A stretch of 64,000 nucleotides of DNA from Turbatrix aceti (taxonomy: Eukaryota > Nematoda > Chromadorea > Rhabditida > Panagrolaimidae). Below, piece after piece: positions 56,047-60,702 of this stretch; positions within the stretch are counted from its first letter, which is position 1, and each line of letters begins with the position of its first letter. A program made the translations under genes and the position numbers. The stretch covers positions 11,848,471-11,912,470 of the forward strand of contig OZ017767.1 in NCBI GenBank assembly GCA_963969345.1, written 5' to 3'. The notes beneath the pieces were generated by a model. That model saw only the letters and a list, made by a program, of their open reading frames with translations. It did no database searches and was not told the origin of the DNA.

Positions 56047-56334
56047 CAGCGCACCGTGAGTAGTAACATGCATTATTTTTAAGCATAACTCTCAACTTGT
56101 CATCATGGTAGGTCGCTTTGACGGACGTGTAGTCATCATAACCGGCTCATCATCCGGCATCGGACGCGGCGCTACTCACAGAAAAATCTGAAAGGGCAAT
56201 ATATTGCTTAGGATTTCTGGGAAATATATTGCCCCATTGTAAGGCAATTTGCCTTTACATAAGAAATATAATGCCTTTACTGAGGCAATATATTGCCACG
56301 GCGAAAATCACAAATCGCGCTAGATTTTTTTCTT

Positions 56335-56413
56335 TGTGGTGCGAGGGGTAGAGGCAAGGACTGTCGAGCATGTAGTCTTCGGATCGAGCCCGATGGGTGT
56401 TAAATATTTTTTT
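56335..56413 (+). repeat. tRNA-like Pol III module near left end of the TA element
   Basis: A-box-like TGGTGCGAGGGG (56337-56348) and B-box-like GGATCGAGCC (56381-56390), about 35 bp apart, followed by a T-run terminator at 56407-56413. Between them a stem AGGACT/AGTCTT frames an 11-nt loop containing CAT. Not a canonical tRNA: the loop is too long and the acceptor stem is poor. Confidence 0.5.
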
Positions 56414-56511
56414 CTGATTTAAATTTGATCAGATTTACGTTTAAAGTAATAATTACAGAAAAATAACAAACCCCTGCGGGTATATGGCGCACCCGATGTT
56501 TAAGCATAGGA

Positions 56512-58300
56512 CGCGCAGGCTGTCTGGACTATCCTGCTCACTGTTGTCTCTAACTGGTTTTTCTCCGTTCAGAGCGCGTCGCACTCATAAAGAGGGGGTC
56601 TCCCGCGGCCCGAGCGCGCTGGTCGAATTAGTTGCAAAAAAAGGAATTTTGGGCCAAATTTGGAAATTTTTACTTTTTCAAATTAGATTTGTAATTAGAA
56701 TAATATTTGAAGCACCTTGATGTGTTTTTTGGAATTGTGGGACAATTTTTGATCAAAATCGAGTAGGGTACGGTAGAAAAAATCCACGGATCTCCGAAAT
56801 GTCGATAGAGAGCTGAAAATTTCAGGGTAGACTAAAAACAAAATTTCCTTTCGAATGGCTTACTCAGTTTTTTGATATCGAATCGATAAATGTCCGAAAA
56901 AACGTTTTTTTTCGGAAATTTGAAAAATTCGGTACTTTCTAGAACTTGGATCAAAAAATGAATATCACCAGTCGAAAGCGCAATATCTTTTTTATCTACT
57001 GCAAAATTTTCACAGACTTACCATATCCCTGGGGCATACGGTAACGATTCTCCCGAACCCTACTTGTTCCAACGCCTGAGGCTATGAGGTAGAGCGCTGT
57101 AGAGCAAAGTGAGATAAAGCATCTTGTTAGAAATTTTTCGGCCTACAAAATGATGTAACTCTCGAATTTTTACCTATTTTTTTCGCTTCGCAATTTTAAT
57201 TCGCGCAACATACACTCATTTTTGGTACCAATTTTCCGAAAATTTAAATCGAAAAAGGGGGGTCTGGGGGAAAATTCGCCATTGACACAGTTTTGGAGCG
57301 TTGTAGCATGAATCTTAACCCCAGACGTAAAAAGCCCTGCAGAATTCAAAAATTTTATTATTTTGTTTTTAAAAGTTCGAAAAAGTTCCAAAAAATGCTT
57401 TTTTTCGAAAATTTGAACTTTTAGGAATTTTTCGGTCCAAATTAAAAGAAACGGATGTCATCATCGAATTTAGAATTCATTTTTACTTCTATACTGAAAT
57501 TTTCAGCTATATTGCTTTCAAACTGAACGAATGGCGATTTTTCCCCCAGATCCCACTTTTTCGATTTCAGTTTTCGGAAAATTGGTACCAAAAATGAGTG
57601 TATGTTGCGCGAATTAAAATTGCGAAGCCAAAAAAATAGATACAAATTCAGGAGTTACACGGTTTTGTCGGCCGAAAAATTTCTTACAAGATGTTTTATC
57701 TCACTTTGTTCTGCAGCGCTTTACCTCATAGCCTCAGGCGTTGGAACAAGTAGGGTTCGGAAGAATCGCTACCGTATGCCCCAGGGATATGGTAAGTGAC
57801 TGAAAATTTCAGAGTAGATAAAAAAGATACCGCTCTTTCGATCGGCAGTATTCATTTTTTGATCAAAGTTCTAAAAAGTACCGAATTTTTCAAATTTCCG
57901 AAAAAAAACGTTTTTTCGGACATTTATCGATTCGATATCAAAAAACTGAGTAAGCCATTCGAAAGGAAATTTTGTTTTTAGTCTACCCTGAAATTTTCAG
58001 CTCTCTATCGACATTTCGGAGATCCGTGGATTTTTTCTACCGTACCCTACTCGATTTAGTTCAAAAATTGTCCCACAATTCCAAAAAACACATCAAGGTG
58101 CTTCAAATATTATTCTAATTACAAATCTAATTTGAAAAAGTAAAAATTTCCAAATTTGGCCCAAAATTCCTTTTTTTGCAACTAATTCGACCAGCGCGCT
58201 CGGGCCGCGGGAGACCCCCTCTTTATGAGTGCGACGCGCTCTGAACGGAGAAAAACCAGTTAGAGACAACAGTGAGCAGGATAGTCCAGACAGCCGCGCG
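56512..58300. mobile_element. Foldback element with two 782-bp inverted arms, nested in the TA element
   Basis: 56512-57293 and 57519-58300 are near-perfect reverse complements. Examples: GGCTGTCTGGACTATCCTGC at the left and its complement GCAGGATAGTCCAGACAGCC at the right, and the block around GGGGGTCTCCCGCGGCCC. A 225-bp unpaired centre lies between them. Mismatches are scattered, so it is not an assembly duplicate. No coding frame was recognised. Arms this long would form a large cruciform or long double-stranded RNA if transcribed. Confidence 0.85.
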
Positions 58301-58929
58301 CCTTACACTCGCCCCTGTTTGTGCCACATGACATACCGGTCTGAGCCTTCAGCAAAAATGTTGCCACGGATAAAATTCGCTGTGGGAGTTACCGATTTGC
58401 AAAACTGTGTACTCCCGCAACTCTCGACGCGAATTTTGCTACTCTTGGGCGCGCTTGGGCGAGCGCAGACTTGCAACTTCTTTCTAGTTTTTTCTTCGTT
58501 TTTATGACTTTTGCTTCTATTTGTTGTTGTTTTGCTTGTCTTTTGACGTATATTTTGTACTATGACTACTCATAGACTACCGTGGAACGACAAGATGACC
58601 TAACAGTGACTAGCAGCAACCTTGGTGAGTTTGGGAGGGGTGGAAAGATTTTTTGCGCTATCAAATGACATATTTAAAAAAAAATCGTTATATCGTGGCT
58701 TGGCAATGCTACTCTTCTGATCTTCCTTGTTGATAAGTTATTCAGGTTGGCGTTTGAGTTATGGGAATACTAGGCTGATGATAGGTTACCGATTTTTTCG
58801 ATCGTTGGCGCTTCAGAACCGCAGTTTTTGCCAAGTCATGATAACTCGATGATTATAAAAACAAGTCATTTGTTAGTTTTTAATTGATTTTTCTATTACA
58901 GCGATACCTAATTCTTAACAGGTGAACAC

Positions 58930-58980
58930 CAGGCATGAAAACGGGCCTAATTTTTAGGCCGGGCCGGCCCGAAATTATCC
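58930..58980. repeat. Possible terminal fragment of a GC-rich hAT-like repeat
   Basis: CAGGCATGAAAACGGGCC followed by GGCCGGGCCGGCCC resembles an end of the hAT-type MITE at 62166-62549 (CAGGCATG then GGGGCCGG). No partner end was found, so it is a truncated or divergent relative. Confidence 0.4.
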
Positions 58981-60702
58981 GTTCTATTTTTTTTTGAATT
59001 TTTATCCAAAAAATAGCAATTAATTGTTATACATATAAATTGCATAAATTACTGGATTTTACTGGAAATATCATGTTTTCTATCCGTAGATTTATGAATG
59101 TACAAATTCCAACAAACTTGCCTATTTGCGTTTTAGATTACGTCAATGGGTTGCACACTACCGTCGTCGAACCCATCATATATCCCTTATCATCCGGGTC
59201 AACGGACGTAACCGACGTCAGATTGCGTGGCGGTCTTTTTTTGTAAGTCTGCAGACTTCATGAAGTCTTTTGATGCCAACTTTGATGGAGAGTTGTTTTT
59301 TAGGCTACTTCAATTTCCAACCTATGCGCCGCGCCACTACGGTGCTGTTTTGGCCAACGAGGAGAAAAACTCGACAATTGTGACCAGATCTTTCAAGCCC
59401 ACGGACAAGACGACAGGATCAGCTATGACCAACTTACTACATTGTTGGCATACTTCGTTTTCTCTCATTTGATTGTCATTTGTATTATTTGCTGTAATAA
59501 TAATAAATACCGTACCTAAAACCGTGTCGAAGGGGGTGGATTGGGCCTAAAAAAGCAGCAACGAGAAAGGTTTCGTCACACTTTGCCAAGGATTTTCGCC
59601 TAGATGCGCTGCAATATGAGCCTTCGGTATTGCCCGTCGTGAGGCAATATATCGCCTCGGCTCAGGCAATGTACTGCGCGGCAATATGTTTTTCTAACAC
59701 TCATGTAGATAAAATATTGCCTGCCAGCAGACAATACATTGTCTCTTGGCGAGCAATATGGGTAAAAATTTTTCTGTGAGTATTCTTGGATTTGCCAAGG
59801 AAGGCGCATCTGTAACTCTGCATGGTACAAATGCTGAACGACTGGCCGAAACAAAGAAACTTTTAACTGAAGCTGGAACTCCGAAATCCCGAATTCTTGT
59901 TATTCAGGGGGCAATTGAAAACGAAAATCTTCAAGCTAAGCTGATTGACAACACTGTTGCCAAGTTCGGACGTCTGGATGTGCTTGTCAACAACGCCGGT
60001 GTTCTGCAAAAACCCGGTGCAGATCCTAACAGTTTGGAAAATTACGATTATGTTTTTTCGATCAATGTCCGGGCGTAAGTTGTATGGTGTAGGATATCCG
60101 AGAAATCTAAATATTATCTTTAGACCCCTGAACCTCATAAATCTTGCTGCTCCACATCTTGCTAAAACACAGGGCAACATCGTGAACGTCTCCAGCATTA
60201 CCTCAATACGTTCACAGGTTAGCTCGGCAGGTAATTCGATTTATGGTGCTTCAAAATCGGCCTTGGACACAATTACGAAAACCAAAGCAGAACGATTGGC
60301 CAAAGACGGAGTCCGTGTGAACAGCGTCAATCCTGGACCATTTTTGACAAACATCATGAATCGAAATGATCCTGCAGGGAATACAACGAGCTTGGATAAA
60401 GCGGTCGGTTCCAACCAAAAAAGTTGAATTCTAACAAAAAAAATTTCAGGCTGAAGATTTTGTTGATGCAGTTGTTCCTCTAAAGCGCTTTGGCAATGTT
60501 GGCGAGCTCACACCAGTTATACTTTTGCTGGCAGATCCCACAAACACGTTCACGACTGGGTCTATCTGGGTTGTTGACGGCGGAAGTCTTGTTGGCACAT
60601 CTCTGACTTTTTAACCCTCAACCAAACATGGTTACCTACGTGGACATCATTTGTGCATCCTGACATCTGGTCTAATGATAACTAACCACTGAGCGACTAA
60701 TG

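Follow-up and report, generated by a model that had tools for sequence, protein, structure and literature searches.

At positions 56105–60614 of the window (i.e., the whole 64,000-nucleotide stretch of Turbatrix aceti DNA analyzed here, positions 11,848,471–11,912,470 of contig C2 in the 59.9-Mb, 28-contig genome that we surveyed) lies a plus-strand gene for a short-chain dehydrogenase/reductase (SDR), the first exon of which is interrupted after base 56174 by a 3,606-bp element (56175–59780, plus strand), of which the genome holds three further near-full copies. The 5′ piece of exon 1 runs from the start codon to a TA dinucleotide (56105–56174) and encodes residues 1–23, including the TGSSSGIG motif; as defined by translation of the joined flanks, the remainder of exon 1 (59783–60074), exon 2 (60124–60403), and exon 3 with the stop codon (60450–60614) follow on the same strand, with introns at 60075–60123 and 60404–60449. 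The element begins with the terminal inverted repeat (TIR) CTCACAGAAAAAT (56175–56187, plus strand) and ends with its exact complement (59768–59780, minus strand), the two matching at 13/13 bases, and a read-out of the flanks gives TA on either side (56173–56174 and 59781–59782), i.e., a 2-bp target duplication. When the flanks are fused and one TA is dropped, they translate into 268 amino acids and a stop codon, with no internal stops, no frameshifts, and with TGSSSGIGRG, NNAG, and YGASK all present. An earlier reading of this locus (the original prediction) had proposed just such an insertion, bounded by exact reverse complements and a duplicated TA, whose removal together with one TA regains a 268-residue SDR with its three motifs present and all splice phases intact, and our analysis bears it out on each of these points.

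We class the gene as an SDR on the strength of its predicted adh_short domain (PF00106, matched by the frame 59713–60075, which contains the remainder of exon 1) together with the TGxxxGxG, NNAG, and YxxxK motifs. Among 7,992 candidates scored, 7,590 are SDR relatives at E ≤ 0.001, and the best named ones come from Panagrellus (50%–55%). The nearest paralogue in the genome (C4:2467623–2468498; locus L070) matches at 86% over residues 1–123, 62% over 119–225, and 80% over 218–264; in the 901 bp read, it is unbroken at the interrupted codons, has introns at matching places, and carries CA at the position of the TA target dinucleotide of the window gene. Other paralogues lie on C2, C4, and C5, those on C5 being six matches within ∼7 kb (C5:10529385–10536347), a cluster of SDRs that are 48%–52% identical and apparently intronless over the matched length.

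Copies and Age of the Element

The exact 13-mer CTCACAGAAAAAT occurs 27 times in the genome, compared with 3 times for a reversed, non-complemented control, and four facing pairs of it, 3.6 kb apart, are full copies: the window element, C2:8454978–8458588, C1:9814998–9818608, and C4:9229411–9233019. Outside a palindromic core described below, pairs of copies differ by 0%–0.58% in the left part and by 0.07%–0.47% in the right part (up to three gap columns are not counted). Because the three other copies differ from the window copy by only 0.2%–0.6% outside the core, the family moved recently. The window copy itself has four private substitutions in the 1,828 bp of its non-core sequence. Nematode mutation rates are a few 10−9 per site and generation, which puts the age of the insertion at roughly 1 million generations or less. 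At such an age we estimate only one to two substitutions in the 807-nt coding sequence, and the absence of further lesions, which the original prediction had taken as a pointer to recency, to polymorphism between haplotypes, or to a tolerant host gene, is therefore uninformative.

Inside its ends, the element carries subterminal repeats of the GGCAATATATTGCC type on the left (56194–56302) and of the GGCAATATAT type on the right (59628–59683). Two plus-strand blocks are shared with sister families of 2.3–3.8 kb, the ends of which are CTCACAGAAAAAT and CTCACAAAAAAA(A/T): one at 58467–58902 is ∼84%–85% identical and one at 59386–59598 is 78%–85% identical over its whole length or part of it. A short repeat (58917–59090) recurs in many places elsewhere in the genome at 78%–84% (40 of 150 candidates scored), and an 86-codon open frame (59212–59469, plus strand), identical in 4/4 copies, contains no known domain. 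Two sister-family copies (L055 and L056; C1:8301800–8318100) share the same 12-bp flanks ∼11 kb apart, apparently by segmental duplication, and another (L054:3567–4873) holds a nested inverted repeat of its own, with 628-nt arms that are 97% complementary and 51 nt between them, which is absent from the 2.4-kb sister copies compared.

Target-Site Preference

Target duplications are present in all four full copies and read TA, AA, TA, and TG. Further sites came from two sets. The first consists of 22 loci, 14 of which gave pairs; the other eight (L053 and L063–L069) hold the exact 13-mer without a clear partner. The second derives from the pattern CTCACANAAAAAW, which occurs at 488 places (compared with 137 for its reversed control); the count of facing pairs rests on 100 of these places, all on C1. 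On this listed part of C1, 18 pairs of facing ends lie within 4 kb, compared with a mean of 7.1 after strand shuffling (maximum 15 in 5,000 shuffles). Ten of these 18 were newly read, seven were already in the first set, and one (8308249–8309520, an apparent segmental duplicate) was left out; two of the 18 look like segmental-duplication copies.

Identical 2-bp neighbors flank 13 of the 14 pairs in the first set and, validly, 7 of the 10 further pairs, the remaining three being one that is masked (L075/L076) and two within inverted duplications (L085/L086 and L089/L090). These counts come from unfiltered pair lists, with L055 and L056 counted once, as they share flanks, and with L052, L085/L086, and L089/L090 set aside for their inverted host flanks (the matching CG of L089/L090 arises that way). 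At the resulting 19 independent sites, the duplication is TA nine times, CA and TG three times each, and CG and AA twice each. Pyrimidine-purine steps thus make up 17/19 sites, as against 23.5% of the window dinucleotides outside 56101–60700 (binomial P ∼2 × 10−9). As read from these flanks, the target duplication of the family spans 2 bp and strongly favors pyrimidine-purine steps, of which TA is the commonest case and not the rule.

The loci set aside have structures of their own. L052 (L052:1114–3758) is a 1.87-kb derivative in an inverted duplication, in which a 79-bp stretch from the left end of the element and 387 bp of host flank recur at 99% in the opposite orientation. At L085/L086 (C1:9510848–9511416) and L089/L090 (C1:11068835–11072152), the 15-bp host flanks are perfect inverted copies, the mark of either a real inverted duplication or an assembly artefact.

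Coding Capacity and Search for a Transposase

Frames lying entirely within the element reach at most 95 codons, and none of its 17 stop-to-stop frames of ≥60 codons (one of which starts 33 bases before the element) has a Pfam match over the cut-off. The 86-codon frame matched the four copies only; a hypothetical spliced reading of its region matched the four copies plus one entry at E 0.53; against the protein collection it gave nothing at E ≤ 1, and none of the Pfam families matched it at E ≤ 5. Two sister-family frames were likewise without a Pfam match at E ≤ 5.

Genome-wide, PF13359 has no match at E ≤ 0.001 (its control matched in 1/14 genomes), and PF02992, the test for a CACTA-type transposase with C(2)C and H(3–4)H motifs, has none (its control matched nowhere). 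PF01359 yielded a single weak match, interrupted by stops (control matched nowhere), and PF13358 one match (control matched in 3/14), both outside every element read; the list of ends covers C1, and both matches are on other contigs. The element encodes no recognized transposase and may yet hold a multi-exon gene of another type. The blocks at 58467–58902 and 59386–59598 may derive from the two ends of a gene that an autonomous ancestor carried.

Nature of the Insertion

We interpret the inserted sequence, with a probability of about 0.92, as a young, non-autonomous, cut-and-paste TIR DNA transposon that landed at a TA step in the first exon of the SDR gene, because of its exact ends, the TA duplication, the 268-residue joined frame, the unbroken paralogue, the three sister copies, and the 2-bp duplications of the related families. 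A transposase supplied in trans by another element would mobilize it, cutting with a 2-bp stagger, for the most part at pyrimidine-purine steps. Several observations weigh against this interpretation. No second, uninterrupted allele of the window gene was seen in the 28 contigs, and no autonomous copy with the same ends was found among the elements read. The L052 pair has no matching duplication, and L063 may be a short pair with unlike neighbors (ta and aa), its second end ∼0.3 kb off and carrying two mismatches (it was not counted). Three Pfam matches fall below the cut-off (E 0.068, 0.052, and 0.0031), which we take as chance over 17 frames; the last is to PF11108, from a 70-codon minus-strand frame in the palindromic core (57445–57654; 18 bits, compared with a cut-off of 25). 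Finally, GC dinucleotides occur between the start of the TGSSSGIG motif and the first in-frame stop codon of the element, making non-canonical (GC) splicing formally possible.

Like non-autonomous TIR (class II) transposons in general, the element has short inverted ends that match exactly, a short target duplication, several copies that are nearly identical, and a paralogous site without the insertion, and it has no recognized coding capacity; what sets it apart is that a nested palindromic repeat with jointly changing arms makes up nearly half of its length. Its place among the known groups is less clear-cut. Among them we favor the CACTA-Mirage-Chapaev (CMC) group, although this assignment is tentative and less likely than not: the duplication is 2 bp of unfixed sequence, as reported for animal CACTA elements (PMC4298943, PMC6004678), and lies within the 2–5 bp described for CACTA (PMC12730594). 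The ends of the window element are CTC…GAG, however, instead of the CAC…GTG or CA…TG given as usual in the CMC group (PMC12730594, PMC6004678), and no transposase was seen, PF02992 being without a match and its control also matching nowhere. The ends are no strict bar, since CA…TG (CAC…GTG) termini are said to occur “in most cases” (PMC12730594) and a Hydra CACTA element that starts with CCC is described (PMC4298943), so that CAC ends are not universal.

More doubtful is the proposal that the CTCACA…TGTGAG elements form an undescribed cut-and-paste lineage, with a 2-bp stagger mostly at pyrimidine-purine steps, a transposase outside the four families tried, and palindromes that act as conversion hot spots; if this were true, the nested palindrome would make the core of a transposon change roughly ten times as fast as the element around it.

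We disfavor ISL2EU, which belongs to the PHIS elements: the short duplication is within the range described for these (none or 1–4 bp; PMC10045372), but ISL2EU ends are described as usually starting with GG (PMC4482050), compared with CTC here, and PF13359, the control for which matched in 1/14 genomes, has no match. Membership of Tc1/mariner (ITm) is rejected as highly improbable, because the shared 2-bp duplication, although most often TA, is TA at only 9/19 sites and CA, TG, CG, or AA at the other ten, in a group for which TA is the stated target “in general” (PMC10045372), and neither the weak, stop-bearing PF01359 match nor the single PF13358 match is at an element read (on an end list confined to C1).

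Effect on the SDR Gene

Uninterrupted translation from the SDR start codon would run into an in-frame TGA inside the element (56189–56191, plus strand) and yield a 28-residue product. A scan of the 5′ piece and the start of the element finds no GT between the start of the TGSSSGIG motif and this stop codon, the five GT dinucleotides of the 5′ piece all lying upstream of the motif, and the remainder of exon 1 (59783 onward) has no in-frame ATG. Because translation ends at 28 residues, no GT donor preserves the motif, and no later ATG exists in exon 1, the gene is predicted, very probably, to be null in the assembled haplotype.

An alternative is that the element is tolerated as an intron and spliced out of a gene that still functions. 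In C. elegans, splicing sometimes removes Tc1-type insertions from exons, and here the right end of the element reads TTTTTCTGTGAG, resembling an acceptor, with the GC dinucleotides noted above as conceivable donors. Nonetheless, with no GT between motif and stop, GT-AG splicing cannot excise the element while retaining TGSSSGIG, and any such product would lack the cofactor-binding motif; we therefore consider rescue by splicing very unlikely and reject it. Redundancy among paralogues may explain why the loss of the gene is tolerated.

The Palindromic Core

The center of the element is a palindrome of ∼1.78 kb (56518–58295; 49% of the element), made up of two 889-nt arms with no spacer that are 90% complementary. 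A search with a single arm as query, in which 40 of 196 candidates were scored, yielded at least 105 matches, these counts being lower bounds, and places the core at at least ∼40 sites on C1, C2, C4, C5, and C20, most of them with a head-to-head second arm. Among the matches listed, near-full ones other than the query are 89%–95% identical. Five of the places are accounted for by L052 and the four full copies, leaving at least ∼35 others. On the listed part of C1, three of eight core places lie inside facing CTCACA pairs and five outside, and because of these five we read the core as a probable dispersed repeat in its own right, nested in the element before the element's last spread; more diverged element ends may be present at those five places.

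Between copies, the core has diverged ∼10-fold or more above the surrounding transposon. The window core differs from the other three by 7.3%–8.9% in the left arm and 4.3%–6.1% in the right arm, whereas those three differ by 1.1%–2.8% among themselves. Mirror pairing accounts for 100 of the 148 variable sites in the core: they make up 50 pairs, compared with 6.1 expected (maximum 15 in 2,000 draws), and 33 of the 50 are complementary in every copy. In the left arm, the private differences of the window copy span element positions 491–1010; in the right arm, one isolated site aside, they are confined to ∼1680–1975. A mirror partner thus exists for only part of the tract.

This pattern is best explained if sequence was imported from another copy and then passed from arm to arm by gene conversion, the import being the more conjectural step. 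Against conversion and import stand the 48 variable sites that are unpaired and the 17/50 mirror pairs that are not complementary in every copy, and against import in particular stands the closest core in the scored sample, which is at most 95% identical to that of the window. Replacement of the core may be an alternative to conversion as the source of the divergence of the window core. On the account by conversion, the core would be a nested repeat of greater age, with sequence passing between its two arms and probably also between it and other copies.

Long zero-spacer palindromes are hard to assemble, and the presence of one in the element raises the question of whether the junction in the SDR gene is an assembly error or, alternatively, an allele of low frequency in the population that was sequenced. 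In addition, three loci with facing ends on C1 lie within inverted duplications that include host flank. A perfect 2-bp duplication and a joined frame exact to the base argue against an error, as does the presence at other sites of three further copies that share these ends, are of nearly equal length, and are each flanked by a 2-bp duplication of their own; we give this explanation scarcely any weight.

Discussion

A transposon has inserted cleanly and recently into one gene of an expanded enzyme family, which is an ordinary event; less ordinary are the 2-bp target at pyrimidine-purine steps and the concerted change of the palindrome. Much of the original prediction survives: the element call (its ends recur genome-wide as facing pairs with 2-bp duplications), the 3.6-kb size, the recent date (given four private substitutions in 1,828 bp), and a host gene that tolerates the insertion, which is plausible given paralogues on C5, C2, and C4, among them the 86% one on C4. 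The TA duplication holds at the SDR locus but does not define the family, the argument from missing lesions carries little weight, and the nested palindrome had gone unmentioned.

On the element side, the locus offers intact ends, very recent copies, and a clear 2-bp pyrimidine-purine target preference, and identifying the transposase would place the family in a superfamily. The four copies, with their near-identical surroundings, let arm-to-arm conversion in a palindrome be read by comparison. On the gene side, the locus shows one paralogue from an expanded SDR family that has been cleanly disrupted in nature, and the age of the disruption can be bounded.

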